From the NCBI GenBank assembly GCA_949130485.1, contig OX422184.1, positions 1,714,117 to 1,778,116 on the forward strand: a DNA stretch of 64,000 nucleotides, given 5' to 3'. The stretch is from Agelas oroides (Eukaryota; Porifera; Demospongiae; Agelasida; Agelasidae). Under the pieces are notes generated by a model that searched no databases, had not been told where the DNA came from, and saw only the letters and a program-made list of their open reading frames with translations. Numbering within the stretch: the first letter of the stretch is position 1; the number at the start of each line of letters is the position of its first letter. Positions 10,594 through 61,975 of this stretch are shown here, piece after piece. The position numbers were made by a program, and so were the translations under genes.

Positions 10594-13500
10594 ATGGACC
10601 GATTACTACTACTCACAGCTGAAGAAAGCAGAGTCAACATGGAAGACGTAAAGTTGTTAACGATAGAGACCGTTTCAAATCAGTTTTTCAAATCTTCGGA
10701 ACAAAAGCCTGGAGAGGAGGGGAAAGAACAGTCTACAGGGGATGCAGGCTTAGCGACCGAGTCCTCAGAAAAGGCTTCAGCTATGTCGTCGAGTGGGCAA
10801 TCTGAAGCTACATGTATGAATGCTAGTGCAGTGGATTCACAAACAGAGTCGGAGGCTGTACAGCAGAGAGAAGGAACAATGGCCAAAGATGAAGCTGCAG
10901 AGGTGGGACAAGGAGGAGGGGGGAATCAAGCGGGGGAAAGTGCCCCTATAGTTTCCTCACCCACTGGAAGTGGCTCAAAGGATGAAGAAATGCCAAAATC
11001 TAATGATAGTTTAAATGATGGTGTTCCTCGGAAAGACGAAGAAGCAACTTCAAATGAAAAAGAGGAAGGTGGAGAAGAAGAGAGCACGAAGACGTCGGCA
11101 ACCATTGCATCAGAGGTTCTGTCTACATCGCACACAGGGACATCTAAAACTGCTGTCATCATGCAGGGATCACCGTCACCCGAAACCGTGGAATTGACTG
11201 AAAATCTGAAGCAATCTCAAGCTCATGTATCTGCCCTCCTTGTCGCAGCGAAAGGAACGGCCCAGCCACAAACCTACGTTGTCCCTGTCCCGATGGTCAC
11301 GCATGTACCAGTGGTAAAAAGTGGTCCTAAACCGAGCATCAATGTTCAGAGGGAGAGGGAGAAAATTGCCATCAAGTTGAAGGTGGGACAGGTGGAGATG
11401 CTAAGTGGTCATGAACCAAAGCCGGTTGAAATCTGCAGTGCAGTGCAAGAAACCATGGATCGTGGTGCGATTGCAAGTGCTCGCACTCCACAAGTTGCCG
11501 TTATTTCTCCGATGCTCTCCAGAGAGACAATGGAGGGAAAGAGCGGTAGTAGTGGAAGTGTTAAGAAGCAAGCAGATGTAGCCGTGATTGATCTATCGCA
11601 AGACGAGGAGGGTGGAAGGAAAAGCAGTGAGTGTGCAATTGTATCATGGGGTCAAGGAGCAGAGAAACAGTAGGAGGAAAGAAGGGAGGGAGGGGGGAAC
11701 AGAGGAACAGTGGGAGGAGGGAAGGAGGGGGGAACAGAGGAACAGTGGGAGGAGGGGAGGGGGGAGGGTGAAGATGAAGCAAGATTGGAGGGAGCATTGA
11801 GTGCGAGATTATTGTGAGTGTGGTTGTGTTCTAGTTAAGGGAAGGTAGAGGGAGGGGAGAAATAGAGAGAACAAGGAGGGGGAGGAACAGAGAATGAAGG
11901 GAAGGAGAGGGGACAAAGGAAGGGTGGGAGGAGGAACTACATGTAAGGGAACAAGGAAGAAATGAATGGGAGGTCGGAGAGAAAAGAGGGAGTGGGAAAG
12001 GCAGTGAGGCAGGGAAGGAGAGGGGAGTGGTCGAAACTAAAAGGGAGGAGGGATGACTCGAGTGAGCAAAGAAGGCTGTGATGGACCAGAGATAACCTGA
12101 GGGAGAAGGGAGGCAGGAAGTAAGTTGTATGTGCATTGTATCACTTGTCTCTCACCCCAGACACAAGGGTAGAGGAGGTGTTGGTGCAGGGTGGCAATCT
12201 TGCTGGTGTGAGAATGGTTCCACAGTTTGTGGGGAGGAAGATACTGATGTCTTCTGGACGACCTCTTGACCCAGTGAGTTGTGTGAGGGTGTGTGTGTGA
12301 GGGGGGAGGGGGGGCGGGGAGTTGAGGGTATAAGGAAATGTGCATGTGCAGTGCTCACGATAACATCTCGAAGTTGCTCTGACATAATGTCAGAACATCA
12401 TTAAGTTTGATCAGACAAGTACCAGTCATGCCCGGACAATCCGACATATGAAATAAATGCAGTTCAAATGCATACCGGGCCCTTCTCCCAGCCTAGGAAA
12501 ACCAATAAACTCTTTGCCACCTAATAAGTAATCATCACAAAAGTTAATTAATGTATTTTGCATAAATTACACGACATAATGAATCAGAGGTTATAAACAT
12601 GTAACAGTGTTTGACAGAGTCTGAAAAAAGTTACAGTTTAACAGAGGACCCATCTTGGTGAAAGCTAGGTTGTGCTTACTGCAGCATTCAGGTAAGCAAT
12701 GTCGAACTTTCGCTTCACCTTCAGCGCAGCGTCACCATCAAGATTGTAGCTATCGGTGCGTATTCAGTGACATCACTGGAGCTCTGCTTCTTCGAAAGAA
12801 GCATTGCTCGCTTGTGCATGTCGGTAGCAGCATGATCTTTGTAGCTGGACGCTAGCTCGCAGGTTCTTCGAACCAACTACAAACGTAGTTGCGCATGCCT
12901 CGCAGCTTCTCGTTGAACATAGAGCACTTCAGCGTCGCCACGTAGTCGCAATCAGCCTTCTCGTACTTAAGCCATGCAGACGTACTCATCTCTCTGTCGC
13001 TCTCTGTGATCCACTTCTGAACTGTTTTTACCGATACCCCTCGCTTCTTCGCCGGTGGAACCTCGTCAGAGCAAGCTGCACGCTTTTGTCCAGACATTTT
13101 GTCCGCACGCTTACGAGATTGATCGGTCACGTGGCATAATTACCCGGAAATTGTCCGATGACCGGACGTTATCACGAGCACTGCATGTGTGGGAGGTGTG
13201 TGTTTGTGTGTGTAGGTGTGGGGGGGATGCATGTATTTTGGGAGGTATACATGCACTTTGAAGAGCTTCTACCGACCTTTTGGATAAGGCCTGCCACCTG
13301 ACTGCTTTTGTGCATGAGATAGCAGTCCCCATCTCCCGGTAATCCCAGCACAGGCCCGGTATTGGCTAAAAGTGCGCAGTGGGTGACTTTACATAACATC
13401 TAGGCCTATATCTGTGTGGTGTGGTGCATACATGTGTCTGTGTGCACACTGGTACATTTATAAGAGCGAGCTTGAAGCCTTTTTTTGCACTGTCTGTCCA

Positions 13501-16500
13501 AAAACCGGGGTTCAGAATGTTTGCCCCTCGTAGTTCAAGTTCAGGATGAAGAATGTGTGCAGGAAACATGTTTCTTAGGTCAGTGACCCTCTGTCTACCT
13601 AGGTAGACACCAACGTCATTCACGTGATAAATTGACCAGGCCTTCCCCCTTTGTTTTAGCGTACTGTAAGCGGTGGGGATTAGACTCACATATTTCCAGT
13701 CACTATTACAACCACTGTATGTTTTCCAGTTTCTGGTCAGACAGTGCTTCAAAGCTATCTTGCTACTTGTGTGTTATGCTGGCTGGCCATCAGTGAGCAC
13801 AATTGTGGTTGTGTGTGGTGGGGTATGATGTATCTTACACTGGTGTGTACATGAGTGGATGTACGTGTACTAGATGCTTGCATTGCAAAGGTCACTTGTA
13901 GAACTGCCCCTCATGTCTTCCTCCTTTACTTTCTGTTCCTCCTCTCCCCCTGTTTTCCTCCTTCCTTCTCTCTTCCTCCTATCCTCCCTTCCTCTTTGCC
14001 TTCCCTCCTCTCTTCCACATTCTCCCCCTTTTGCTTTCCCTCCCTCCTTCCCTTCTCCCCTCTCTTCTCCTCTTCCTTCCTTGCTTTCTCCTCCTCTTTC
14101 TCCTCTCCCTACCTCCTTCCCTCTTTCCCTCCCTCCCTCCCTCTTTCCTCTCCCTCCCTCCCTCTTTCCTCTCCCTCCCTCCCTCTTTCCTCTCCCTCCC
14201 TCCCTCCCTCCCTCCCTCCCTCCCTCCCTCCCTCCCTCCCTCCCTCCCTCCCTCCCTCCCTCCCTCCCTCCCTCCCTCCCTCCCTCCCTCTTTCCTCTCC
14301 CTCCCTCCCTCCCTACCTCCCTACCTCCCTCCCTCCCTCCCTCTTTCCTCTTCCTCTTCCTCTTCCTCTCTCCCTCCTTCCTTCTCTTCCTCTCTCCCTA
14401 TTTCCCTCCATCTCTCCCTCCCTCCCTCCTTCTCTCCCTCTCTCCCTCCTTCCTCTTCCTCCCTCCCTCCTTCTCTCCCTCCCTCCTTCCTTCCTCCTCC
14501 TCCCTCAGGCTTCACTAGAACACATTGGAGTGGACTCAAAGGGAAACATGCTCTGGTACGATGGCGGACGCAATATGTTCCAATCTCCCTCAACTGTAGA
14601 CCCTTCACACAAACCAAGGTCAGTTGTGACTTAGATTATGGTCCTGATCTCCACTCCTCCTCCCTCCATTTGCACTATAAGTCACAACCAGAACCAAATA
14701 CTTGTACATGGGCACAAATATTAGCCAAAGTCAGCGCTAGGGCTGTTTGTGGTCTATAATTGGTTGCCGGCACAACTGAGAGACTGTGTGTACTACTGCC
14801 AGCTGCAGTGTCGTCCGTGAGCAAGTTAAACAGCATTCGCTTGAGTCTTGCGAGTGACCTGCGTGTGACTCACATCTGACCCACACACTAACTGTGCTCA
14901 CAAGCCGGGTGGGCTAACTTGCGAGCACAAGGGCAAGCATGTGGACTTGTACGAGTACTCGAGTGTGGGTGGGACATTCTCTTGTAGCATGTGCTCCACC
15001 TTGTGTGAATAGTTGCTGAATTTACAGGTGTTTCTCCAGAGTTTAGCCGTTCACTGACTACGCTGTCCGGGTGAGACAACATGTACATGCTAGTACACGC
15101 GTACTCGCAACTTGACTCGCAAGCGACTCGAGAGTGGTTTGTGAGTGACATGCGTGTGCCATTTAACTTACTCTTGGACAGTGCTGTACATGTGGCTACT
15201 TTCTCAGGCCTTTACTGCCTCTATTGTACGGTCAAACACATGTACTCTTGTAAACTTACCACACGCACCACATGCATTTCATCCCGTCACACAAACTCAC
15301 ACACACACTTCAGTGAGCCTGAACTGACGCTGGTGTGCAAATCCATGGTGCAATGGATGGCGAAGCTAAAGTAAGTTCCAATTATACCATGCTCAGGTGA
15401 GAAAAGATACTAGGCTCTCCCCGCGTATTCGTATTTCGGTATGGGGGAGCCTGGGAACGAGGCTAGGAATCTACCATACCTCTTCCCAATACCACTGTGA
15501 GATAAGATCCCGCCTTGCCAATGTTCCGGCCTCATTGCAAGAAAGATCCCTATCCCTCTAGATCTGTTTGTGTGTGTGTGACCATGCAGATCTCCAAAGC
15601 TATATTCTCCACTTCACCCTTGTTTCTATAGTAACAGGTACTAGGTGGATGTTATTTTCCATATACTGACAGGAAGTTGTAGGTTCTGTTCATATACCAC
15701 AGGATCCAGGAAGTTGTAAAATGATGTTTCCTATAAGCTGTATGTGACCTGCTGAGCGAAAACCCGGCACTTTGCACAAATATTGAGTTTGAGTTAGAGG
15801 CAATTTTATCCGTACAGGTCGTTTCCCAGCTAAACTCAGATTATTACACCAGCATGTCACAGGGGGCTTGGACTGTATCATACATAATTATGAAGCCCGG
15901 CTCTGCCACTATAAGGACGATGTAAGCTCAAACTCATAGGCAGGCCAGTGAAATACGGGAACGCGTTGCTATGGACAGCTTGTACGCGTTTTTCAAAAAA
16001 CGCGATTTTACCAGCTTCCAGTCCGTATACAATGTACGGTTGTCTTTCTGTCCATAGACACAATGTAAGCCCCCGCTTTTATAACCGCTGTCTTTCCCAA
16101 CTGTCTTTGCCGACTTCTAAGCTGCTTTTTCACAAGAACACGTGTAAATTTTACGTAACACGATAGTATACGGAGACATTAAAGTTTACCGTAGCAACGT
16201 AAAAACATTACGTTTTCTCAAAAAGTTGCGTTCCAAATCTGCTATGCATTTCGCTCTGCAGCTCGGGAACCAAGCAACCGACCGCTTCCATTTTTTTTCT
16301 GCCGCACAATTACACATTGATATACTGATTTCCGGTCTTATCTCGATTTTCATAAAATGCGCAATGTGCCGGGTTTTCGCTCAGCGGGTCACATATACCT
16401 TGTTTACAGTGTAAACTACCTTGTATGTTTACTAATAACAACAAGGACCAATCAGGTTGGAGAATATAACAGCATGTTAGTCTGGGTTTTATGGTTTACA

Positions 16501-19500
16501 ATAACCACCCTTGTCCTCAGACTCCGCCCTCAGAGTCGGATGGTTATTGACCATAAATCTCAGGCTACCATAATTATTGTAAGTTACGTATCAAAAACTG
16601 GACACGGTAAAGACCTGACACTGACGCCAGCCTTTCACCCCAATTTCTGTCCTTCTCTCCTTCCTTCCTACAGGGAGCTCCGTGGTAGCTCTTCAGAGGC
16701 AGACAACAAAGTGGCCCAGACCATCAGAGAACATTTCATCTCAAGAGTGCGGATCGCAACACAGGTAAATATGCGTTAACTAGGTCTTCTATTATGGATT
16801 TATTGCGAGTCCCTTTCCAATATCTCACCCCTGACTCCAACCGGATTCCCAAGGTGCCTTATCAGCACCAGTAACATTGTTCATTCATAGACATAATTTA
16901 CTTCCCCCGGCAATCTGATTGGTGCAACAACATGCCGATATACTTTATAATTAGGTCCCAGTTTCTCTAGTGAAGGTGTCTAGACCCTACATGTATATTT
17001 CGATGAGGCCACAGGGTGTGCGTGAAAAATTTGGTCTGGCGACAAAGCTATTGAACTGCACGTCTGTGTGGTAAGTTGGCTGTTTGTGTAGGGTTCTACC
17101 CGACAACCTTTTAGTGGTAGTCAAAACTCAGACTTGAAATTGCATATTTGTTAATTAATTATGTTTGTCTCTCTTCAAAAACGCATAAGAATGGGCGGCT
17201 CGAGTAAGAGCGTGTAACTCCAATAGAAGCCCATAGTCCGGTCAAAATTATTCGACCGTACTAAAAATAGAACACCCGGCATGTGCTTAGCAACAATGGC
17301 TTATGTCTACACATACACAGCATGCGCAGTACATGTAAGTGTATGTGTTACTATTTTTAGTACTGGTGATAAATTCTATCAGTATAAATCCTTTTAGTTT
17401 CAGCTGGTTTAACTGGAGAAAAAACGGGATCGTGATGAAACCGTTGCTATAGTTACTGTACTATTCTAATTGTTATACGGTGGAACCTCCCTTAACGGAC
17501 ATTCTCTATAGCGGACACCTCATTATACAGGACAAAATGTTGTGGTCCGGATTGAATTTGCATTACGCATAATACTTTAGAGCTCTCCGAAATGCGGACA
17601 CCTCGCTATTCCGTAAAGCGGACAGATTTTGCGGTCCCGCTAGTACCGGGACTGTACAAAATTCACTCGATAATGCGGACGCTGGCAGGCCTCTCGCACA
17701 AGATTGTCCGGCACCGCTGATTGATTCACCAATTGAACATTATACTAACACTGGTACGCATAGTTCTAACCTGTTTCCATTTTCCTCCCCTATCTGCCTC
17801 TCTCTCTTTTCTCTCTCTGTTTTTCTCACAGCGCAAACCAAAGGATCCGACCACAGTTCAGAAGCTGATCGCAACTGCCAGTGCTCACATGAAGCACCCC
17901 CAGTTTCCGATTGCCACCCTTCCCATAACAGCTACCACAGGCAGTGAGAACAATCCTGCTTCCTCAACTGCGTCAGTGGTAGCGGCGAAGGGCGCACAGA
18001 TGGTCCAGCCGACATTCCCCCAGGGATCTATCCTTGTGATGCCACATCCTCAACACCCCTTTCATGCCCTACTGCCTGTTTTCGCAAATACTGCTGTCAT
18101 TATGCCCCCAAACGCTGCTGCTACCGCCCAAAAAGCAGTTGAAGCGCGTGCTTCCACTGAAATTGCTGCTACTGCCTCCAAATCTGAGGCAGGCAAAACA
18201 TCAATGCATGTTGCAGCACCGTCCGTAGTGCAGGCAATCTCTGGAACAAGCAACACCAACGCTGAGAAAACTTTGGAATCAGGGCGAAATTCAAAACAGA
18301 GTTCAGAAAGACGCCAGAGCCAAGGAATTGCCATAGCAACACCTGCAGGGCCAGCGGCCATACCAACAATGCATGCCTTTACGTTTGCAGGCTTCCCGGC
18401 TCCCCACGCCTTTGCACTACCTGTTGCCGACCCGGTAGAGCTAGCAACTATCGATTTCAATTCAAAATCTGTTGAGATCACTGGTGAAGTTCCTATCAGG
18501 AAAATAGAGCTGAAACCGGAAGAAATCGAGGCTGCAAAGATGGCAGCCGCAACAATGACACTTGAGAGTTCAACTTTGGAATCAAAGAAGCCGGATGTTG
18601 ATGATGGTACAAAGACAGGAGAAGCCACTGAAGTGACTGCGCCACAAAACAAGGAACACATTGGAAAAGATGGTGGTTCGGAATCACTGGGACAAGTTTC
18701 TGGCACCCCCGGCATGATTCATGGGAATCACACCTCGACGGAAGTCATGTCTGCCAAAATGCTTTTGTCGTTGAAGGGCAAAGATTGGCAAGTATCACCA
18801 CTTGACAAAGACGCTCCTCAAGTGATTGCTGTCTCTGATTCTTCACTTAGTTTGCCTCAGAGTGCCCCACATACCCCTTCTAGCGGCCGCAAGAGAAAGC
18901 AGAAACCGATTGCTAGTGTGAAAATAAGCGATGTGGCAATATCGCCAGATGGTGCTGGGATTCTACCACCAATTGCAGCGGGAGATAAGGACGCTGTTGC
19001 TGTTGACGACGGTACTGCACCAGCAAAAAAGAAGAGGGGTAGAAAGCCAAAGCAGGTGGCAGGGGTTGGAGGTTCTGATGAGCCGGTCACATCAACACCA
19101 AAAGGACGGGGTAGAAAGAAACATGCGAAAGGAGGAGAGGAGAAAGGGACGCTGAACACACTGACGGGACAAGAACTGTTGGCCATTTTGGACATTCCAC
19201 CTTCGGTAGAGTCTAAATCACCTACACCTGCTAAAGTGAAAGGGAGATCTAGAGAACTCCTTGATACAGACAAAGGAGTACCCCATGGTGCAAAAGGCTC
19301 GGCCAAACTGCAGCTACAGCAACTTAAAGCGTCTGGTGCGAGCAAGCCAATGAAAGAGTATGTCATTGAGACTGACTCAGAGTCAGGCAACGACAGCGAT
19401 AGCAGTTCGTCTGGTTCAAGCTCTTTTACTCCCAGTAGCAGTTCTAGCGACAGTAGCAGTAACAATAGCAGCAGTGAGGCTGCACCTGCAGAGGAAAAGC

Positions 19501-22500
19501 CACCCCAGTCGAGTAGAGGAAGAGGAGGAAGGGGGAGAGGAAGGGGGAGAGGGAGAGGACGGGGAAGAGGGAGAGGAAGAAGTGCAGTGGAGAAAGTAAA
19601 CCAACAGGACCAATCGTCGAGTTCTGATGAAAGCAGTTCCGAGGACAATGAAGAGAAAGGAGGAGTAAAGGAAGTTGAGACTCATAGGAGGAGGGGGAGA
19701 GGGAGAGGGAGGGGGAGGAGAGGTGTTGGACGTGGGAGACCGAGAGGGCAGCACATAGTGAGGATTCCCACAAACCTTCTGCTGACTAAGCCGCAGGTCG
19801 GGATGAAGAGGAAGGCTCGCAGCAGTCAAGCTGAGGTGGGTGGGTACACACACAATCCGTGTTTATGATTAGCTAGGCCACTGCAAAATATTGGAGAAAA
19901 GGCCATGCGCTTCTTTAATATTCAACCAAGTGGTCATCAGCAATAACGTCCACATGTACTGGCTTATAGACCTTATGTAATACCTCACGTAACCAAACCT
20001 AAAACGAACAGTGGACGGAAATCCGGATACTACGCTGCCATTTTGAATGGCAAGAAAGACTGCGGTCTATGGAACTTAAGTACAGCGAAGCACTTTGCGA
20101 GCTCACTGCGTCAACGAGGCATGCAGGTAAGCTTATTCGCTTCGGTGAGCGTTAAGTCCGGTTGAGACCTTGTGCATTCAGGGTGTAAATGTAGAATCAC
20201 TTCCTGCACTGGTGAGAAGGGAGCTCGCAAACTGCTCCACTATACTTACGCTCCATAGACCACGGTCATTTTTGCCACTCAAAATGGCGGCGTAGTATCC
20301 GGATTTCTGTCCACCATCCGTTTCACGTTTGGTTACGTGAGGTGACGTGATTGTATCTTTTCTGGCCACTTGCTCAGGCCTTCTGACCCCAGCATTTGTT
20401 GGCTTGAATTGCACTGTCTACTCAGGACAATCAAAAACAAAGTGTAAGCTTTGATACACAAATTACGACTTGCCGCAAGGCATAGGCAGCCAGAGGAAGA
20501 GTTTTTTCCCCCGTCTGTTTCGCAATGGGTGATGATCTGGAGCTTGTGAGCAGGCCTCTATATTATAATTACCAGAAGCTCATGAGCTCCATGAATATAG
20601 AAGCACGCTTTTTTCTTTTTTTACAGTGAGATATGTGACAGTCCCGTGTAGGAATCGAAGATTATTCCATCGCGTATTTCGATCGCATCGCTGTGTTTGA
20701 AGCGTTGTATCGCTGAACTTCCGTTATGGGCGGGGGTCATGCGTGCTTCATAGATGCATGAATATCTAATGACTCTACGAAGTGCGTATGAGCCCTGCCC
20801 TTAACGGAAGTTCAGTGATACAGCGCTTTGAACACAGCGATGCGATCAAGATATGCGATGGAGTAATCATCGATTTCTACATGGGACTGTCACATATCTC
20901 ACTGAAAAAAAAGGCATGCTTCCGTATTCATGGAGCTCATGAGCTTCTGGTAACATAGAGGCCTGTTCACAAACTTCTGGTGTTATGCGACGGAATAATC
21001 TTCAATTTCTACACGGGACTGCCACATATGGTTTAGTCATTGATGTGAAATGATCACCCCATTTGAGTACCTCTCACTCTATCCATCTGTTACTGTTGTC
21101 ATCTCTCTCACACACAGTCTGATGATCCGGAGGCTGCCCGCAAAGCTAATGAACTTGCTTCTGATGTACCCGTGGATCTGGCAAGCCTGTACGCCAGTGG
21201 AGGAGTTGACCTTGGTACGCTGAGCGAGCTGACTCGAAGTGTCCGAGAGACAGCCGGGGTCAATACTGAAGACGGCACTCAGGCACGATCCAAGCGAAAG
21301 TGCGTCATTGTTCGTGAAGAAATTAGCAAGTTACAGGAGATTCTTGGAGAAGTAGGTACCATCGAATCAAAGTCTTCGTCAGGAGTAGTAAAACCAAGAG
21401 GGCGTGGAAGAGGTAGGCCGCCTTCCGCCGGACGTACCAGTGACACAGGTTATCAGGAGCCGAGTTCTTCTGTCAGGAAGTATCGACGTCCAGCATACAG
21501 CCAGTTTACTCACAAGAGACGAAAGAGAAGGAAGAGGCAACCAGAAGAAGGTTGGTGTTACTGGGATAATTCTTTCTTGTGATTGTTTTTGTGTATGTAT
21601 ATAGTACATTATATTCTCCCACCTGATTGGTCCTTGTTGTCATAATTACATGCATTACGTGTAGTTTGCAAAGTAAGCCAGGTACAACATTGTTTTACAA
21701 CTCTGTGGTATACGAAACACAGTTTACAACTTTCTGCTCATTTGTTACCATGGAAACAAGGGTACTATAGTGTACATGTGCTTGCCTCAGGGGACAAGGA
21801 GTTAATCCATGTACACCTGTAGCATTACTGCAGTACAGCTAATAGTAAAGTGGCATTGTTAGAATGACCCCTTGTTATTATTGTACATGTGCAAAACAAT
21901 TACAACAACTTGACATAACAAATACGTTGCCATGGTCAGTTCATTTAAACGCCATGTCACTACATGTAAGCTATATCTACTTTGTAGGATCAGGTCACTT
22001 TGTATAGTCTGATATTCATTTATTCTCTTCTTTCTCTCCAGAGGCCCTGTGGCAGCCTGCCAGGAAGCATGCACCTGGCGAATCACTCAAGCCCCTGTAT
22101 GTCTTCTCCACCAACTTGGCCAACAAGGCTGCAGAGGCTGTCCTACGAGGGAAATATGACAGTATCATCCAGTTTCATCAGGCGCAGCCAAAGGGCCCAG
22201 GCTTCCTACGTCTTCCTCAACCAAAGTCACAAGGCGAGAGTAGTGCAGGTAAAGACGGTGAGACTGCTGAATCGGGGAAGGAGTCTGGATCAAGACTGCC
22301 AAAGCGTCGGTCCTCAAGACCAAGTACAGACGATAGCCCGATGGTTAAAAAGCTCAGAGGTGGTGGTCGTAATCGCAGTGATTCGCAAACAACAGAAGAT
22401 TCTAAATCTTCCGCTCCCAGCAGATACAGCAGAAGATTGAGAAAGCAAAGAGGTGACAGTGTACCGTCATCGCCCTCCTCTCCTGCGTCACAGAAATCCC

Positions 22501-24710
22501 CAAGCCCATCTCCTAGCAACCAGAGGTCCACAAGATCAAGGCCGTCTGCTTTAAGGAGCGAAGTCACCCTTCAGCGATCTACCCGCAATAGGAGGATTTC
22601 CTTGCAAGAAAGCCAGCAAAAGAGTAGTAGCCCTCCTCCACCACCTTCTGCAACTAGCCACGAAGAAGAGGAGTTCGACAACTCCCAGCAAACGGTTGAT
22701 GAAGAGTCTGCTTTGTCTGCAGCTGATGAGCAAGAGCGTACATCCACCGCTTCCAAAGGCCTTGAAGACCAGCAGAAATCCCTGAGGGGAAATCAAAGGG
22801 AAGACACTCAAGAAAGTCCTCTCATCCATTCCCCTCATGAATCTGATACATCTGTTCCTCCTGTTTCCCAGGATGAGATAAATTACACCATCTGTCATGG
22901 TACGCCTGTCGAAAAGAGTTCAGCTAATAATGACATTTCAAGCCCGAAAACCTGGGAACAGCAACAAAGACAAGCGCAACAGTTCTCTTATCCTCAGCAG
23001 CTCCAAAGGCAACAAATGTCCCATTCAGGTCACTCACCTTTAACTCAAGTCTCTGGAGAATCGGCATTTTCACCTTGTGCAGACCCCATGAGTACGCCAC
23101 AGTACTCGGCAGGAAGTGCCCACCCTCACCACCATCTCCTTGGTCGGGAGCAGGCCATGGGGCACCCGCACAACATGCAACTGACAGAGCAGCAACTTCA
23201 CAAGGAGACGAACAACTGGAATGCCGCTGGTCTCACTCCGCAATTTCCAGGCTACGTCCCTTCTATGTACAATCCAGGCCTTGCTCCGATGTACCCACCG
23301 CATGCTGCTGCCCAGCCAATGGCCGCCCCAAACTACCCCTATCCTCTACCATACCCCTGGGGTCACCATGCCCACCATTTGGGATCACATGGAGATCACA
23401 TAATGCAGCAACATCACCACAGATCAGCAAAGTCACTGCATGAACAGCCTGGTGCCCAAGGCATAGACCTTCTACACCAGCAAGACTCAAGGACCATGGA
23501 CATGGTTCAACAGTTGAGTCACTCACCCCAAGTTAGCATGATGCAGCAGGGTCTGCCTTCCTCTGTTGCCTCAGTCTCCAGTAGACTGTCTGACATCAAT
23601 AAAGAACCGTCTTCTTTCTCTCCTGACCCTACTGCTTCTTCTTCTAGCTTACCCAAGCCACAAGCGATGGAGAAGATCCCCATCACTGCCACCAGTGCTA
23701 GCCTCCATCCCCCTCCCACTCTCCACCAGTTCCCCACCCATGGTAGCTCCCACCACCAAGTCCAACATGCTTTCTCACGCCCTCCACATGCCCTCACCCC
23801 TGAACACATTCCTCATGGAGCTCCAACCCATCCACACGCTGCTGCTGCTTTTCCTTACGGCTTTGAACCCAGCTCTCTCTCCACCATGCACATGTGGCAA
23901 CAGACACAGATGCAACCGACTGCCATGCGATCAATCCCTGGGATGCATCCCTCACACCTCCAGCCACATTTAGCCCCACATGGCTTGTGGTACCATCACC
24001 AACCTATGGCACCACTCATGCCTGGATTGGGGGAATTTCCCAGTGGAGCCAGTGGTGATCATTCCAAATTAGGGAAAAAATCAAGTAAAGGGACCGGGAA
24101 AAGTTCACAGGTTGACGTAGGTGGAGGCCAGGCTAAGCTAAACCGGAATAGTAACAACAGTAATAACAATGAGTCTCCAGGACACGCCCCACAAGGCACT
24201 CCCTCAAGTGCACAGATGTTGTATGCAGCACAGTACCAAGCTCAAGCCTTCATGCCAAGGCCGAGTTCGTTTTCTGTCGAAGATCTTACAGGCTCATCTC
24301 CCTCAAATCTCAGAGAAGACATCCATGCCTCTCGGGTTGCAAGAGGATCAACATGGGTGCCACCAACTGTGGGAACCGAGACACAAGCAGACATTCACTC
24401 CAGGCTTGTTGCTTCCATGATGGCACAACAAACGGCTCAACTGAGTCCTACGCACGATGCAAGTTCGTACCATTTGACTCCACACCACTCTCATACAAGA
24501 CAAAGCTCTACTACCCACCGAAAGCATCCACTGCCGGAAGATGGACGCTCACCTATGATGCATGGCCACCATAGACACGCATCACATACCGATGGCATGT
24601 TTGGAGAGCAAGAAGATTTGCCGACGTCAGCCATCCTCGAAAGGACTAGAAGAAGCAGTGAATTTACTGATATGGATAGCGATTGTATAATTAACCCTTT
24701 CCCCAGTTAA
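10594..24710 (+). CDS. BCL9/Legless-like Wnt co-activator with AT-hooks
   Basis: Seven coding exons join in phase: 10594-11626, 12161-12273, 14509-14618, 16674-16764, 17832-19835, 21118-21550 and 22042-24710. They total 6453 bp, or 2150 residues. Decisive is the segment at residues about 1280-1310, beginning LYVFSTNLANKAAEAVLRG. It matches the HD1 motif of BCL9/Legless (VYVFSTEMANKAAEAVLKG in vertebrates as I recall it). In that family HD1 binds the Pygopus PHD finger and links it to beta-catenin/TCF in the nucleus. AT-hook-like motifs lie near residues 849 (KKKRGRKPK), 872 and 1209 (PRGRGRGRPPS). RG-rich tracts lie at about 1010-1033 and 1068-1090, beside Ser/Asp-rich acidic runs. The C-terminal 800 residues are rich in His, Pro, Gln and Ser. 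I see no helix resembling HD2 (the LRxIQxMLFP type that binds beta-catenin). Exons 2-4 encode an unrecognised block. The start ATG lies one base after an acceptor, so the 5' untranslated part is upstream. The protein is larger than usual for BCL9; a wrong join of two genes is possible but every phase agrees. Confidence 0.82.
11675..12060 (+). repeat. Purine-rich low-complexity tract in intron 1
   Basis: About 390 bp of mainly G and A on the sense strand, with GGAACAGTGGGAGGAGG-like repeats at 11695-11755. It begins soon after the exon 1 donor. Open frames on it are composition artefacts. Confidence 0.85.
12852..13130 (-). pseudogene. hAT-transposase-type N-terminal fragment in intron 2
   Basis: An open frame of 92 residues begins MTDQSRKRADKMSG. 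It carries VSVKTVQKWITESDRE, then WLKYEK and LKCSMF. This resembles the start of hAT-derived TTF-type zinc-finger proteins (ZNF862-like), where a basic segment is followed by KW..E.D....WL.Y and LKC. Only this start is present; no catalytic or dimerisation part is seen. It lies antisense in the BCL9-like gene and is probably a remnant or a captured piece in a non-autonomous element. Confidence 0.5.
13335..13403 (-). repeat. Reversed copy of the GGCCTAGATGTTAT repeat
   Basis: Reverse complement of the segment at 3009-3073 and 52425-52492, recognisable by GGTATTGGCT, GCAGTGGGTGACTTT and ACATCTAGGCC. Confidence 0.55.
13918..14507 (+). repeat. CT-rich tract of about 590 bp ending at the exon 3 acceptor
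   Basis: Almost uninterrupted pyrimidines, including a long run of CCCT units at 14190-14290. The tract ends in CCTCCTCCCTCAG, the 3' splice site of BCL9-like exon 3 at 14509. Open frames rich in Ser, Pro and Leu across it are composition artefacts. Confidence 0.92.
15409..15466. repeat. Short foldback element, TAGCCTCG family
   Basis: TAGGCTCTCCCC at left pairs with GGGGGAGCCTGGGAACGAGG at right. It lies in intron 3 of the BCL9-like gene. Confidence 0.6.
15741..16395. repeat. DNA element of about 655 bp in intron 3 of the BCL9-like gene
   Basis: Ends TATGTGACCTGCTGAGCGAA (continuing AACCCGGCA) and its inverse TGCCGGGTTTTCGCTCAGCG (continuing GGTCACATA) give inverted repeats of nearly 30 bp. 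TA at each end fits a TA-targeting (Tc1/mariner-like) element. The interior has no transposase. Confidence 0.75.
17180..17385. repeat. Foldback element, AAGAGCGTGTAACTC family, partial
   Basis: Shares GGGCGGCT(T/C)GAGTAAGAGC, GAAGCCCATAGTCCGGTCAA and TACTATTTTTAGTACTGG with copies at 32112-32325, 53463-53714, 61692-61895 and 63466-63720. The right end is decayed. Confidence 0.7.
17475..17715. repeat. Tc1/pogo-like element remnant
   Basis: Begins CGGTGGAACCTCCCTTAACG, the kind of end seen on pogo/Tigger-type elements and at 50843-50945. It continues with several GCGGACACCTC-like pieces. The right end is not recognisable. Confidence 0.5.
19982..20343. repeat. Foldback element of about 360 bp in intron 5
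   Basis: The arms start CCTCACGTAACCAAAC and end GTTTGGTTACGTGAGG. They stay paired through the ATCCGGATACTACGC / GCGTAGTATCCGGAT blocks and the GGTCTATGG / CCATAGACC blocks, so most of the element is a long imperfect hairpin. Non-coding. Confidence 0.8.
20539..20977. repeat. Large palindrome of about 440 bp in intron 5
   Basis: The left arm GAGCTTGTGAGCAGGCCTCT pairs with AGAGGCCTGTTCACAAACTT at right. Inner blocks CATGAGCTCCATGAATA, GTGACAGTCCCGTGTAG and GCGATGCGATC pair in order. The loop is near 20745. Nearly the whole element folds back on itself; a foldback transposon is likely. Confidence 0.85.
22095..22187 (+). other. HD1 (Pygopus-binding) motif coding segment
   Basis: Encodes about 31 residues from LYVF to HQAQ at the start of exon 7. 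The stretch NKAAEAVL is identical to vertebrate BCL9 as I recall it, followed by a hydrophobic IIQFH where BCL9 has IVSFH. The exon 6/7 join (phase 1, codon GAG split G|AG) lies 17 codons upstream. Confidence 0.88.
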
Positions 24711-25156
24711 TGCACACCAATTATTGTATACAAACTTCTACCCTTCTACCCCCATTGATTCTTACCATACATGTATTGTACAATTGTAGACTTTGAATTT
24801 ACGACTTTCAATCATTTTAGCTGAATTTTTTTTGTATATTCTGTTATGTTCTGGCTTTTCATATTTGTCTGACTAAAATCAATACTGTCTTGGCTGCTTT
24901 TGTACATAATTATAGCTTTAAAAAGTGGCACCTGTTTAACTTTGGATATAAAATGACTTTCTCTTTGTAAACTTGTCACCTGACATTTTGCCATTAAGAT
25001 ACAGTGAGACCTGTCTGTAATGGTCACCATGGAAACCTACATATTGATACTCTTGCTACCCTTGATTTGTTTTCTGCAGAAAGTGACCTCAACAAAGCAG
25101 CTGCCTAGGTAAGATAGAATGACAACTAGACAGACTGTAAAGACTGATGCAGGGAG

Positions 25157-25230
25157 TAGCCTCGTTCCCAGGCTCTCCCCTCGCCCCGACGAAAAATAAA
25201 AACAGAGGGGAGAGCCTGGGAATGAGGCTA
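25157..25230. repeat. TAGCCTCG-family foldback element with 9-bp duplication
   Basis: A 74-bp hairpin running TAGCCTCGTTCCCAGGCTCT to AGAGCCTGGGAATGAGGCTA. It is flanked on both sides by TGCAGGGAG (25148-25156 and 25231-25239), a perfect 9-bp target-site duplication. Confidence 0.9.
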
Positions 25231-25579
25231 TGCAGGGAGTGTCGAAATGGTTTTTAAGTAGTGTCAGTCCAGTGGCCTACCTGCATGCAATCACTGTGAC
25301 CTCCAGCTCCGATACACAGCCACCTGAGTGCACATACGTCTTATATCTCATGGTCACTCCTGGCCAGCACATACGGCTGATGAACCCTGTATCGAACATT
25401 AATGCCAAAGTGTCCTCTACAGTGGGTGGGATGGCTCTTGCATAATGACGTGTAGGCTGCCTTTCTCAGGAGATGTGGTCCATAATATTATTGTCAGCTA
25501 CTAGAAAGCATTATTTGGGGTTGCACAGTCATGTATCTACTTAACTGGTTCATGCGTACAATGCACAAACCCAGTATTA

Positions 25580-25710
25580 GTTATACTACCTAAATGAGGA
25601 GTATAAACCCAGATATACTCTGCTAGACCATTTACCTGAGACGAGGCTGAGGTAAACAATCTAGCAGAGTATTATCATGCATGTTTATACTCCTCGTATA
25701 GGTAGCATAC
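25580..25710. repeat. Foldback element of about 130 bp
   Basis: TATACTACCTAAATGAGGAG and TACTCTGCTAGACCATTTACC on the left pair with GGTAAACAATCTAGCAGAGTA and CTCCTCGTATAGGTAGCATA on the right. Confidence 0.8.
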
Positions 25711-25905
25711 CACATTGAGACAGTAAACAGCTTGGTGTAAACTATTCTGTACATCATGCAAGTTTTGTGCAAACTATTATTTTACATACATAACAGGAGT
25801 ATATGACCTGTTATACTTACTCCACTATTCATCCAATGAAATACTTAGAGACAAACTAATACCTTTGCATGGCTGTCAAACATAAATAAAAATCTACAGA
25901 CATTG

Positions 25906-32800: not shown

Positions 32801-33579
32801 GAAGTAGCATTAAACATCATATGTACAGTGAGGCCATTTTTACTTTGAGGTACAGGCATGAATTTAGCTTTCAACTTCAGATTCGGGTAAATCCACCATG
32901 AGTGTAGATGATATTACTCCGATATTCCTAAAGAAACACTTACCAGAACCACTACAGCCAGCTTTAGATAGTCCAACCTTGGAAATGTGAAGAAATGCCA
33001 AGATGTTGGTTTTCTGGCTTTCACAAAATTTACGAAAGTCACTGAACGTATCTGCTCCTGTGGATTAGAATCAGCAAGGAATGTTATAGTAGAATGTCCT
33101 ACCGAAGAAAATTCATGTGGGTGGCCGATGAGAAACTAATAATCAACGAATTGGGGCCTAACCACGGCTTAGTCAATGGACAACTCCCTTCTTGAAACTT
33201 CATACATACATGTACACACTGCTATTACGTCTAGATGTCCTTCTTCTCACTTACCAGCACTCCCAGCATCTACGACAGTTGTCACTCCTCTCTTCAAACA
33301 GTGCTGGTCGGGATCAACCCCCAGCACACTGCCACCAGGGAAGCCATGGATGTGTAAGTCAATCAGCCCAGGGCATACAATACATCCAGAGGCATCAAAC
33401 ACGTTCAGCTCATCCTTTGGCAAATCTGAGCCTAGATTCTCCCCTACTGCAGCAATTTTATCACCCTGGAGCAGAACATCAAGTGGGCCCTTTTCAAGTC
33501 TGTTTTCAGGATCAATGACTAGCCCATTCCTGATCAGTGTGAAGTTTTGGCCAGTCTTGGCTCTCTTTTCCATCTTCAA
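29805..33579 (-). CDS. Metal-dependent amidohydrolase (deacetylase/dihydroorotase-like)
   Basis: Six exons on the minus strand: 33579-33255, 33057-32944, 31972-31822, 31658-31567, 31148-30750 and 30049-29805. They give 1326 bp in one frame, 441 residues. The order of motifs is that of the amidohydrolase family typified by the bacterial deacetylase EF_0837: HxH in LIDLHIHGF (residues 76 and 78), the probable bridging lysine in VVGVKLRLS (178), histidines in PLMVHH (213) and YTHAYHGF (244), and the aspartate in AISTDLH (307). GVYFDIGHGQGSFNW precedes the last of these. All metal ligands expected for a two-metal site are present, so an active hydrolase of an N-acyl or cyclic amide substrate is likely; the substrate cannot be told. 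There is no signal peptide, so it is probably cytosolic. Intron 4 carries a long pyrimidine tract in the sense direction. The last exon has a second copy at 25906-26150. Confidence 0.85.
31155..31545 (-). repeat. Pyrimidine tract (sense strand) in amidohydrolase intron 4
   Basis: About 390 bp of G/A on the plus strand, therefore C/T in the transcript. It includes GGGAGGGGAGGAAGGGAGAGA-like repeats at 31275-31380. It fills the intron up to the exon 5 acceptor. The other end of the intron is a TG repeat that begins at the exon 4 donor (31566). Confidence 0.92.
32112..32325. repeat. Foldback element, AAGAGCGTGTAACTC family
   Basis: The left end CAAGAGTGCATATGAATGGGCGGCTTGA is followed by TACTAAAA-like and TTTTGACCGGACTAC blocks. 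It lies in intron 2 of the amidohydrolase gene. The right end stops near TTGGAGTTATT. Confidence 0.75.
33107..33160. repeat. Solo right end of the CCCCAATTCGTT family
   Basis: AATTCATGTGGGTGGCCGAT then GAGAAACTAATAATCAACGA and ATTGGGGCC match the right ends of the elements at 46429 and 48659. The rest is missing. It lies in amidohydrolase intron 1. Confidence 0.75.
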
Positions 33580-34454: not shown

Positions 34455-37400
34455 CTACTTTTTCCTCTTTCGGTCCTTTTTCTTTATTCTCTTTATTCTC
34501 TTCTCTCCCCCTACATCCATGGCAGCAGCCTGCTCAATTTCTTCAGGTAAATCATAAGTGTCTTCTTCCTCCAGCAGGGTTTCAGGTTGCGATGTGTTGT
34601 CTGCTTTTTCATTCTGCATTCGCTGGATCTTCTCTTGTACTCTCTTCTGCTCTTTCCTCCCTCGACACACCAGTGATTCCATCTGACCAACCATCTCATT
34701 TTGCACTTTCCACAGTCCTGCTCTCCATTCACAACTTCGTCTGATGTCCTCAATTTCCTTCTCATTCTTTTCCAGTAGAAACTTGATGGCAGTCATGACT
34801 GAATCCATTTCTAGATCAACCACATGTTCCTCAAACGACTCACACTCGTCTAAAATTTTCTTCAATTCAATGCTAAGTTCCCTGTACTGCCAGTCAGTCA
34901 CTTCCTTTGAAAATTTAGCGTACAATCTTTCCTGAAGTTTGTGATGCTCACTTTCAATATGGTCCTGGTAAGTTTCCATATTGCTATATACCACTGTGGA
35001 CTCAACGCTTTCTCCTTCCTTTTCAACCACTTCAGATTCCACTTCATCTTCCTCCCAGGATTCCACTGTAGGAATAAGTGCCACATTCGGCTGCCTCAGT
35101 GGTACACCGCAGAATCGGCAGAAATTTTCATCAATCATGGAGTAGTCCCTTGTGTCACTAACACCAATGATGGTAGACTCAGTAGTTGGTGACTTAATGA
35201 GTTCTTGACTTTCTTCGAATGCTTTCCAGATGTCCTCATCTTGAATATCAGGGCCATGCTCATATTTCTCTTCTTGCTCCTCTGCTTCTGGCTCAGGATA
35301 GCTCATGCTTGGCTGAATTTGTGGCGACTCAGTAGTACCAGCTACAGGAGCAGATGTCATGCCTAATAATACAGTCTGGGTGCTTGATTGTTGATTTTGT
35401 TGTTGCAATGTCAAGTCAGCTTGTATCTCATGAGAACGAGCAGTAAGAGGATGTGCTTGGGCAACTGGAAACTGTCCCCAGTCAAATGAATCCTGCACAG
35501 CCTGAAGAGAAGATGTTTGAAGAGTATCAGAAACTGGTTGAGACTGTTGAGGACTTGCAAGTGGCTGAACGGATGGAGACCCTGGTTGTGGCTGCAAATG
35601 ATCTCCTGGGAACAGTTTCTGCAATACCCTAGGTAAGGCTGGCACTTCAGTTGCAAACTGAGAAGAAACCTGTAAGGATTGAGGGGAAGCTGATTGAGGC
35701 TGAACTGCAGTTGGGTGGTGAAGCTGCTGGTAAATGGGAATCATGGGACGCTGGGGTCGGCGCTGAAGCCGAAATTGTGTAAGTTCAAGTTTTGGGACCT
35801 TTTGCTGTTTCTGAACCACAGTAAATCTCTGTAAATGCGAACTGCTGTCAGAAGTGGCAAGTAGTTGAGACAGCGCTAAGAAAGTACCAGATACATTAGC
35901 AGATGAAGCAAATATCTTTTGTACTTGCTTCAAGGGATGTTGTTCTGGAAGCTGTTCTGGAAGTTGTTCAAGAGCTGCATTGATTTCTCTCTGGTAGTGA
36001 TGAAGTTGTTCATCAGACCAAAATGATCCTGCAAAGGCAAGATTACCAAAGAGTGTCAAGACAAGGATAAGGCAGTGCTTCACCTCTCCATTTTGGAGGC
36101 AATTCCAGTTTCTGATGGCAAATCTCAGTACATAGAAGTGCCTATTATCTCTTCCAAGAAGCACATCCAGAACAAGTTGCAACAATTCAAGGATGTCGTT
36201 GGTGAGCTGAGGGAGGTTTGACTTGGGACACTTTTGAATATTCACATCCTCCATGCATGCATGAAGGAGCCACTTGTCGCCTGGTGTGTGGCAATTAAGA
36301 TCATTAAAGACTTGAGCAACGCGACTGTAAGTGTGAGGTACAATAAATGTACAGGGTTGTTTGAGCAAAAAGCAACAATGTGTAGCTAGTCCTAGAAGAG
36401 CGATGGAATGGATGCAAACAATGTTCACAAAGTTAGTGACAGAGATTGTTGAAGCAAGACTCTTGGCTATAGTCCTCACAACAAAGTGAAGAACAATCTT
36501 TGAAGCTGTCAACACTTTAGAATCGCTGCGTATCAATGAACAAGATTTCATGAAAAGAGAAAAGACATGCTGATACTTTCTCTCTCGGCTAGAATACACT
36601 GAGGTATGAGAAGGTTTGTATATAGCTTGATTGCCTGACTTTGCTTTGATGTTCTCTTGTCTTTGCCTTTCATTGAGTACTGACTCAATTCTCTGAGTGC
36701 CTTTACCCAACAAACAGCTTATTCTCCATGTCTCAAGCCACTGGTTCATTCTGAAATCGACATCTCTGGTTCCAAGTGTGGCTGCAGTTTCCTTTTCAAA
36801 AATCTTAATTACCAACTCTGAACTTCTGATTGCATACATGTGAAGTTTGCTAACTGGCAGGTATACTGCTGCTTGCGGTGAAAATAGATTTCGCAAAATC
36901 CTTGTGACATCCATTGATCTGAACAGTTTACTTCCACAGCTGTCTGCTTCCAAGGAAAGGAGGCAAAAGTCAATGTAAGTTTTCAACTCTCTTGGTGGGT
37001 AGGTCATAAAAGACTGTTGCAAGTAACCTCCTTCACACAAGTACTTATGGAAAGGAAAACCAGCCAACCTAGACTTTAGTGCCTGATTCACATTCATACA
37101 GTCCTTTTCCATCCATTCGGTGATGTAGTTACTCAACTGCTCACTGATCCTCTTCAAAGTGAGCGTGATATCAAGCCTCAGCATCCCATCTGGTTCAACC
37201 TCATTACTGACAGTTGAGCACTCCACAAGCTTTCCCCAGAGATCTAGACTTTGTGGAAAGCTGTAAACATCACCTTGTTTTTGAAGGTAGTAGAAGTCTT
37301 CCACTTCTTGGAGAATACGAGTGAAAGAGGCTGTTGGTTTCTGTCTGTTTTCTATTGCTTTCTGAATAGACCTAGCTGCTTTGCATGCTCCTATCATAGG

Positions 37401-40400
37401 CCTAATCAACTGCAGTGGCCTATCCACTTGTGGTTTGAGTTTAGTGAAAGCACTGAATGACTCAACCTGTCCAATTTCACATGGTGGAGTGAAGGACTTA
37501 TACAAGTCAAATGCCTTTCTGCACGTCGAGGCATCTTCATTTGATCTTCCAAGAAGGAGACAAGCTTGTGCTTTAGATCGACTATTATCTGGTCCACCTG
37601 CAATTATTTGCAGTCTATTCACAACATCAGGATCCTTTATACTTCCATTGCTGATTAGCTCAGCAACTGCTTTCTGAACTGTGAACCTTGCTGCCATTTC
37701 TTCATCGCCCTGTTTCTCAGCAAGGTCAATGCCATCCTTGTACTTTGCTTGTGCAGTAAGAAGTTGGTAGGCTTCAGCATACTGACCTTGTTGAACGTGA
37801 ACCTCACAAGCCTTGCTAAATAACTTGGCTTCCTTTAGAAATCTGATTCTCTGGGAAGCATCAGGCATGTACTCCAAGACTTTAAGCAGTTTTGTCTTGT
37901 CTTTGTGTTTGGAGTACATCTTTGCAAATGTGTGGGCCAGGTGGGCTACTCTTACCTCTTGGTGAAGAATAATACCCTTCCTCTCATATTCTGATGCTTG
38001 GGCTAGGGCATCAATTCTGCGGTTGAAAGTGATGAAGAGTTTAATGGCACCTGTATAATCCCCAGATTTCTCCTTCAACTTGGCACAGCCTGCGACGTCT
38101 TTGGACCTGATGAACCCTTTGAGGGCCTGTTCATACTGTAAAGAGAAAGAAGAAACAAGAATCATACAACATACCCTCAACGATTTTTTCAATCAACCTG
38201 AAAAGGTATTGTACATACCTGGCCAAGTCTTTCAAAAAGTTTAGCTGCTGCACTATGCTGTTTGGCATTCTTCAGACACTTTGCTGCATTTGACAGGTAC
38301 TTGACATCGTGTTGCAGTTGGTCACACTGGAGGAATGCTAGAGCAGCTTGCAGGTAGAGTTGGTGCATCTCCTTGGCCTTCTGTCCATGAGCTTGCTGAG
38401 CCATGAAGTATGCTTTGGCTTCCATTTCAAGGGCGACAATTCCAGATTTCTGGTAGCATTTCATAGCTGGCTCCCATAGGCGTTTCTTCTTAAAGTAGTC
38501 ACCTTGCTCTTTCCATTCTTCGGGAGTGGATGTGGCAGCAAAAAGAATACTCTGATCTTCTTCACTGACATCGTTGACTCTGATAACCTTCACCAAATTT
38601 CTCTTGCACCAGTAGTCAAAAACGGGAAGTCTTTTGTCTTCATCAGAATCGTAAATCCAGAGATTACACTTTGCTCTGGTGATGGCAGTGTAGAGGTATT
38701 TAAGCTCAGGGTTAAGGGACTTGTGCTGCCTTCCATCAAAGTTCAGTGGGCGGGGCTGAGATTCGAATGCTGGGACACTATTCTGAACCATGCTGGGTTT
38801 ATGCTCAACAAATGAAGTTACAACACGCCACTCTTTTGAAATCTGTGTAAGAAGCACAAGCAACAAAGTATCATATAATGCTAAGCAAGACATGCCTAAA
38901 TGTACAATGTCATGCAAAGAGTTGCAAACAAACTTGTGAGATTGCACATAAGCTACTCACCTTGGAATCACAGAAGAAATTGTAGAGCAGGACATCATCG
39001 AATTCAAGTCCCTTTGCTTCAAATACCGTCAGTACAATACCTGCTTTCAGTACATCTGGTAGTGCTTTCTTGGAATCTTCAGATTGTACGATAATAACTT
39101 GGTGAGCTCCAAACTCAATCGAGGAGGCCTCTCTCTTGTTGCTTCGCATGAGAAGTGCAAGATCACTGACATTGCAAGACTGCAGGACAGTGGGAATTGG
39201 GCCAGGGAACATTCCCTCATCTCCAGGTAGGCAATCAAATGAATTTGGGAAGAACTCTTTGAGGAGGTCAATAATGCTGGCTGCAAGTTGAAGAACTCCT
39301 GAATGGGACCGGAAGTTAATTGTAAGCTGCTGCAGCTGAGGAACATGAATTTTAACAGCCCCTTTAACACGTTTTGCCTTTTGTTGCACCTCGTGAAAAA
39401 GGGTTCGTAGGTCTCCGAATCGAAATGAAACTCCACGCATGATGCTTTGTGCAGTGTCTCCCGTCAGGAAGAGGCCATTTGGATCTCTGCAGCATCTCAG
39501 AAGAACAGAGAGCTCTGCTTGGGTAAAGTCTTGGACTTCATCAACATAAAAGTTGTGCACTGACCACGGAACATCTTTCAGCACTGATAATCTCTGGTAG
39601 ATATCATGAACAAAATCACATTCATCAAACAGATTCAGACGTCGCTTGCGTTTCAGAAAGTGTTGATATTGTAGAAACAAAGTGTATACCTCACTGCGGT
39701 TGCCATCAAAATTAGGAGCCATCTTCTTTCCAAGTTTCTCATACTCGTCTTGGGTGAGGTATCCCTGTTGAGTTTCAACTGCTTCTCTTGATCCTTTGAT
39801 GAATGACTTTATCTCCATCCAAACTAGAAGAGGATCAGTCGCTTTATCACAGCAAGCATGTGATATCTTTGGCCAAATGTGCTCAGCAAAGTATGAAGCT
39901 GTTACCTCTCTCCACTCGGGCATTTGCTGCTTTGAGGCTGTCTGATGAAATCGGTACTCTTCAAATTCAGCAAATTCACCTTCATCTTCACTCTCACTCT
40001 CTTCTAAGTCTAAGAGAGTATCCGGATCTTCATGATCGTAATCTGAGCTAAGAATCTTCACTTTCAGAGTGCCATCTTCACCTCTTGGAAAAAAGGAAAC
40101 TCCATCTGCAAGAGAGTTGTCAAGAAGAAGCAAAAACTGGCGAGTTGTGAGGAAAAGAGGGAAAGCAAAATCGTTTGTCATGACGAGGTCATTAGCAATT
40201 TCTGTGTCTTCAAAGGCCATCTGTTCTTTGGCACTGTCATTGCTTGCAGCCATGTCATAAAATCGCTTTCTCATTTGAGCACAGAGCACATAATTCTTCG
40301 TGATGAAAACTTGGTGGAGATGTTCAAGTGTTTCTGGTAGTGTTGCTTCTGGGCATGGTTCTGAGCAGTGCTCAGACATAGCTTCACTGCTTACTACATT

Positions 40401-61889: not shown

Positions 61890-61975
<86 letters not shown>

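Follow-up and report, generated by a model that had tools for sequence, protein, structure and literature searches.

In the window, i.e., the whole 64-kb stretch of Agelas oroides DNA that was analyzed, a gene model was derived from the sequence on the plus strand between positions 10594 and 24710. It comprises eight spliced exons and is predicted to contain an open frame of 2,169 aa, which starts with the ATG at 10594 and ends with the stop codon at 24710. All seven introns have GT-AG borders and are in phase. The initial annotation had placed a single protein of about 2150 residues between the same limits. The start, the stop and the open frame were recovered, whereas the length had to be corrected, and the number of exons increased from seven to eight, including an exon of only 57 nt (15314-15370).

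Exon 1 (10594-11626) encodes the residues 1-344 and is rich in Ser and Glu. Its first ATG is directly preceded by an acceptor-like TTTTACAG, which makes a further exon upstream of exon 1 likely. The next four exons, i.e., exon 2 (12161-12273), exon 3 (14509-14618), the short exon 4 and exon 5 (16674-16764), together encode the residues 345-468. Exon 6 (17832-19835) encodes the residues 469-1136 and contains three AT-hook-like motifs and two RG tracts, while exon 7 (21118-21550) encodes the residues 1137-1280 and has a Lys/Arg-rich end. Exon 8 (22042-24710) encodes the residues 1281-2169 and the stop codon; it contains the HD1 segment, which is followed by a long tail rich in Ser, Pro, Gln and His. 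The first AATAAA 3' of the stop codon was found at 25195-25200 on the plus strand, in a scan of 24708-25800.

The segment encoded by exons 2-5 (12161-16764) differs from its neighbors. Its 124 residues look compact and have an aromatic and hydrophobic content that the adjacent regions do not share (LWYDGGRNMFQSP..., ELTLVCKSMVQWMAKLKELRG). No Pfam match and no credible PDB relative of this segment were found; a PDB match to the molecule C8-71 with an E value of 0.35 was taken as chance. A second copy was not found in the genome, and the five matches were the gene's own exons. The segment may represent an undescribed domain. Several Pfam matches below the cut-off were regarded as noise, namely DUF5320 (0.15), TAT_ubiq (1.5), Microcephalin (0.041), LMBR1 (1.1) and Podoplanin (1.3). 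A CTCC-type repeat of 569 bases (13938-14506) ends two bases 5' of exon 3 and supplies the pyrimidine tract of this exon.

Additional features were seen elsewhere in the window. Long open frames, including frames of 1,245, 1,096 and 348 aa, are present on the minus strand at 34458-43301, and the middle one matched the UvrD-helicase family (PF00580, 3.3e-6); these frames presumably resemble TRANK1. An amidohydrolase-like N-terminus lies on the minus strand at 33250-33579 (PF07969, 3.9e-5, below the curated cut-off). An exonuclease exon is located on the plus strand at 61838-62230 (RNase_T, PF00929, 2.4e-5) and is preceded by a Thr-His repeat that stems from simple-sequence DNA.

The HD1 segment and the motifs around it

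The HD1 segment, LYVFSTNLANKAAEAVLRGKYDSIIQFH, is encoded at 22095-22178 on the plus strand (aa 1299-1326). It is identical to human BCL9 at 18 of 28 residues. A phmmer search against the PDB retrieved six chains of BCL9, BCL9L and a "BCL9 homolog", which we take to be the fly protein, with E values from 4.4e-8 to 2.7e-6, and the next, unrelated chain followed at 0.36. The ungapped score against human HD1 was 101, and none of 60 local shuffles exceeded 46. Eight of the nine HD1 residues that are named as Pygopus contacts by Fiedler et al. (PMC2726290) are identical, and the ninth, V201, is replaced by Ile. It is the only HD1 match with an E value of 0.001 or lower in the 259-Mb genome. These results bear out the initial annotation, which had described an HD1 nearly as in vertebrates, and the predicted protein has the segment that makes Legless/BCL9 a partner of the Pygopus PHD finger. 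Its start at residue 1299 is at variance with an N-terminal placement before HD2 and HD3, a result that depends on the gene model. Two contig collections not meant for animals were also searched for relatives of HD1; none of the 32 pattern matches in the genome-contig collection and none of the 24 in the viral-contig collection could be confirmed.

Four AT-hook-like motifs were found upstream of HD1, all on the plus strand: RGRKP at 19035-19049 (aa 870, context KKKRGRKPKQ), RGRKK at 19107-19121 (aa 894, context PKGRGRKKHAK), and two RGRP cores, one at 19731-19742 (aa 1102, context GVGRGRPRGQ) and one in exon 7 at 21409-21420 (aa 1234, context KPRGRGRGRPPSAG). The two RG tracts of exon 6, at 19515-19580 (aa 1030-1051) and 19686-19724 (aa 1087-1099), are situated between the second and the third of these motifs. 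In 2,000 shuffles within blocks of 40 residues the mean number of RGR(P/KP/KK) cores was 0.10 and none reached four, two of the four cores being variants that were counted after the sequence had been seen. The two strict RGRP cores were reached by 5 of the 2,000 shuffles. As a reservation, RG repeats adjoin the AT-hook cores. Pfam did not detect an AT-hook in the model at E values up to 10, which is usual for such a short motif. The AT-hook-like motifs and RG tracts that had been noted upstream of HD1 were thus found again, and cores of the RGRP type occur in a basic context as in AT-hook proteins. This region might bind DNA or RNA.

At the other end of the protein, an NPF tripeptide is encoded at 24693-24701 on the plus strand (aa 2165-2167); it is among the five C-terminal residues. 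At least one NPF anywhere in the protein was also obtained in 206 of 2,000 shuffles, and a query with an NPF stretch of Pygopus did not pick out the C-terminal copy. The NPF of Pygopus binds LDB-SSDP (PMC10287724, PMC4571689), and it is possible that the C-terminal NPF is also a ligand of LDB-SSDP, but it may be there by chance. Neither an eh1 motif nor WRPW/WRPY was present in the model.

The search for HD2 and HD3

The HD2 profile (Pfam PF11502) did not match any piece of the 2,169-aa model, including the C-terminal part, in agreement with the earlier observation that no HD2 is visible. The human HD2 sequence served as a positive control and scored 70 bits. When it was compared directly with the model, the score was 26, and 44 of 60 shuffles were as good. 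In the genome no match exceeded the 25-bit cut-off, and the best three were equal at 14.7 bits (E 9.67). Such matches were regarded as noise, since a bacterial genome among the 14 controls likewise gave a match below the cut-off. Searches of the genome with family profiles lose genes that are split by introns, as exemplified by LDB, which was missed by PF01803 while one exon was found with a protein query. Therefore, such a search would not detect an HD2 that is interrupted by an intron or has diverged strongly.

The only candidate for an HD2-like helix was REEISKLQEILGEV in exon 7 (21313-21354, plus strand, aa 1202-1215), which is weak and not convincing. It is N-terminal to HD1, about 84 residues before it, and has an HD2-like spacing according to a pattern that was set post hoc and was also found in 20 of 500 shuffles. 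The search of the model for an extended beta-catenin-binding motif and for a loose HD2-like spacing did not reveal anything above chance.

HD3 is a helix that binds LDB-SSDP and has an invariant Trp and a Phe/Tyr doublet. It was not recognized in the model: the human HD3 query scored 24, compared to a shuffle mean of 26.8, and 50 of 60 shuffles were as good. This is a weak test, made with a single human query sequence. Legless/BCL9 has a C-terminal tail to which Groucho/TLE binds; in the model the tail that follows HD1 has 843 residues. Two C-terminal blocks of human BCL9 were compared with the model, and 14 and 23 of 60 shuffles, respectively, were as good.

Pygopus and further Wnt components in the genome

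A Pygopus PHD finger is encoded by two minus-strand exons on contig C4, around 9446911 and 9445422, which can be joined at GT-AG borders. Its similarity to PYGO1 has an E value of 2.9e-23, and the nearest non-Pygopus chain followed at 6.2e-5. Six of the nine residues that face HD1 are identical, the exceptions being T375 (Ser), V389 (Glu) and G391 (Val). According to the published structure, V389 and G391 act mainly via the backbone, but T375 is called invariant (PMC2726290), and thus its replacement by Ser is a mild point against the interaction. Of the 16 residues that have been named for histone or pocket contacts, 12 are identical; N351 is replaced by Arg, Q354 by Asp and L358 by Tyr, and V389 also differs. 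Pygopus is known in sponges (PMC3851687), and PMC2959043 lists one from a ctenophore. An NPF-bearing N-terminus of Pygopus was not detected, as no NPF occurs in the six frames of 19,801 bases around the PHD exons. The predicted HD1 protein and Pygopus thus co-occur in this genome, the latter as judged by the PHD finger alone.

In human Pygo the R2 pocket is filled by a leucine that is described as conserved in most animals, sponges included, and some flies have Phe at this position and read R2 methylation (PMC3851687). In the PHD finger of A. oroides (C4:9446911-9445422, minus strand) this leucine, L358 in PYGO1, is replaced by Tyr, and the Trp that divides the pockets is kept. The finger might, therefore, treat H3R2 differently from human Pygo. 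The PHD query yielded 150 scored matches of 233 candidates on many contigs, many of them in long open frames of repeated length, which suggests that a PHD-bearing family of mobile elements has expanded in this genome.

Further components of the pathway were also found. beta-Catenin was represented by two pieces (57 and 37% identical), an HMG box of the TCF/LEF type also by two pieces (66 and 70% identical), and LDB by a fragment found with a protein query (47% over 51 residues). SSDP was not found in the genome with a protein query or PF04503, a search of low sensitivity, and the N-terminus of TCF was not found with PF08347; both negative results carry little weight, because PF01803 likewise missed LDB. 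Eight residues of ARM1 of beta-catenin have been named as the site for HD2 of BCL9 (PMC9698307). Six of these are kept (D162, D164, L159, L160, V167 and A171), while D145 is replaced by Ser and E155 by Asp. The six residues look as if the site were still used by a ligand, but they neither prove nor exclude an HD2-like one, as this groove also belongs to the repeat fold. A diverged or a separate contact of beta-catenin with the HD1 protein is possible. A long CA repeat precedes the beta-catenin exon that starts ARM1 (C22:4032736), and in this exon Gly-Ser takes the place of the human D144-D145.

Alternative readings, proposed mechanism and comparison with known systems

Three alternative readings were weighed against the evidence. 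That HD1 is a chance resemblance could be argued from its length of only 28 residues, but the phmmer E values and the distance to the shuffles led to the rejection of this view; together with the kept contact residues and the presence of Pygopus in the genome they reduce its probability to practically nil. Another matter is whether the model fuses two genes or isoforms, namely an AT-hook/RG protein encoded by exons 1-6 or 1-7 and an HD1 protein that starts in a short exon within intron 6 or 7. The donor of exon 7 (AAG|GTTGGT, 21550) is indeed the weakest of the seven, at the 92nd percentile of GTs, as scored with splice-site frequencies, and each of introns 6 and 7 contains one variant poly(A) hexamer (AATATA at 20594 and AGTAAA at 21844). 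Exons that start with an ATG and keep the frame open do exist: 2 of 41 combinations with the acceptor at 22042, 10 of 45 with 22044 and 13 of 154 with the acceptor of exon 7, one example being 21864-21965 with a GTAAGC donor. The statement that no alternative ATG exon can reach HD1, based on nine candidates that end in T and create a TAG, was thus too strong, since the wider test left a few short ones. However, these exons have at most 54 codons (exons of up to 400 bases were examined), AATAAA and ATTAAA are absent from both introns, and the acceptor at 22042 has a strong pyrimidine tract. In addition, methionine is absent from exon 7 and from exon 8 before HD1, and HD1 thus needs a coding exon upstream. 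A fusion of two genes is, therefore, considered unlikely, and a single gene with exons 1-8, as predicted from the sequence, appears more likely.

If a single gene is accepted, the protein could still be an ordinary, fast-evolving orthologue of BCL9 that bridges Pygopus to beta-catenin with an HD2 and an HD3 that have diverged too far to be recognized, REEISKLQEILGEV being an example of what the former might look like. The six kept residues of ARM1 and the HD2-like spacing of this helix-like stretch are in accordance with such a bridge. Yet the stretch is located N-terminally of HD1, where BCL9 has HD2 on the C-terminal side, and shuffles also fit its post hoc pattern. HD2 and HD3 were no better than shuffles, while HD1 was far above them, and PF11502 revealed nothing over the cut-off in the genome. 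This reading is regarded as rather doubtful, a little less so than the fusion of two genes.

The reading that we prefer, to which we give an even chance, is that the gene encodes a nuclear scaffold of large size and mostly disordered appearance, which serves Pygopus as its HD1 partner and is held by its own contacts to DNA or RNA, without a recognized HD2 or HD3. HD1 would pack against the rear side of the PHD finger of Pygopus and support the recognition of H3 methylated at lysine 4. When HD1 is bound, it supports the pocket of the PHD finger that takes up the first residue of H3, and it raises the affinity for H3K4me (PMC2726290); the same effect would be expected here, because most of the HD1-PHD interface is kept. 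The AT-hook-like motifs and the RG tracts, which precede HD1, could attach the complex to RNA or to AT-rich stretches of DNA. As neither HD2 nor HD3 was recognized, these contacts of the scaffold probably keep the Pygopus unit at chromatin. beta-Catenin would either not be contacted by the scaffold or be contacted via an unrecognized segment or another subunit. In the mouse lens BCL9-PYGO is described to act without beta-catenin (PMC9285942), and, because a segment that recruits beta-catenin was not seen, the complex of A. oroides may work in the same way or contact beta-catenin elsewhere.

A bolder version of this scaffold reading appears improbable to us, though it would be the most far-reaching. 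It states that the AT-hooks hold the PHD-HD1 reader on DNA, that the protein never touches beta-catenin, that the reader pair is older than the adaptor role or separable from it, that HD2 was added later or was lost in this lineage, and that the C-terminal NPF possibly tethers the complex to LDB-SSDP. An early origin of a form with HD1 and without HD2, and the absence of a contact to beta-catenin, which the initial annotation had also considered, next to a contact by another route, are conjectural. The genome contains Pygopus, beta-catenin and a TCF-type protein, and its sole HD1 match lies in a predicted protein without a recognized HD2; it thus bears on whether the reader arose or works apart from beta-catenin.

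The predicted protein can be compared with three known systems. Like the LDB-SSDP ligands with an NPF, i.e., Pygo, RUNX and Osa/ARID1, it has this tripeptide, in its case at the extreme C-terminus, but acidic residues precede the NPF instead of following it, and its occurrence is not above chance for the whole protein. AT-hook proteins of the HMGA type have RGRP cores flanked by basic residues or glycine, and the same pattern is seen here, e.g., in GRGRPRGQ. In contrast to HMGA, the motifs occur at scattered places of a large scaffold and have RG tracts next to them, and the contact to DNA is putative.

The textbook BCL9 chains Pygopus to beta-catenin. The protein of A. oroides resembles Legless, BCL9 and BCL9L in the sequence of HD1 and its Pygopus contacts, in its large size and in the long C-terminal tail rich in Ser, Pro and Gln. 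It differs in that HD2 and HD3 were not recognized and in the presence of AT-hook-like motifs and RG tracts before HD1, neither of which is, to our knowledge, known in BCL9. Among the matches listed from the open-access literature, none described a BCL9 from a sponge or AT-hooks in a BCL9 protein. In the model 1,298 residues precede HD1, whereas HD1 of human BCL9 spans the residues 177-205 (PMC2726290). Because HD2 and, by the weaker test, HD3 were not found, the full definition of Legless/BCL9 does not apply, and the protein is best called, from its sequence, an HD1-bearing, BCL9-like partner of Pygopus rather than a member of BCL9, i.e., it is BCL9-like at the Pygopus end. If this is true, A. 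oroides may have a Wnt cofactor that is built differently from the textbook BCL9.
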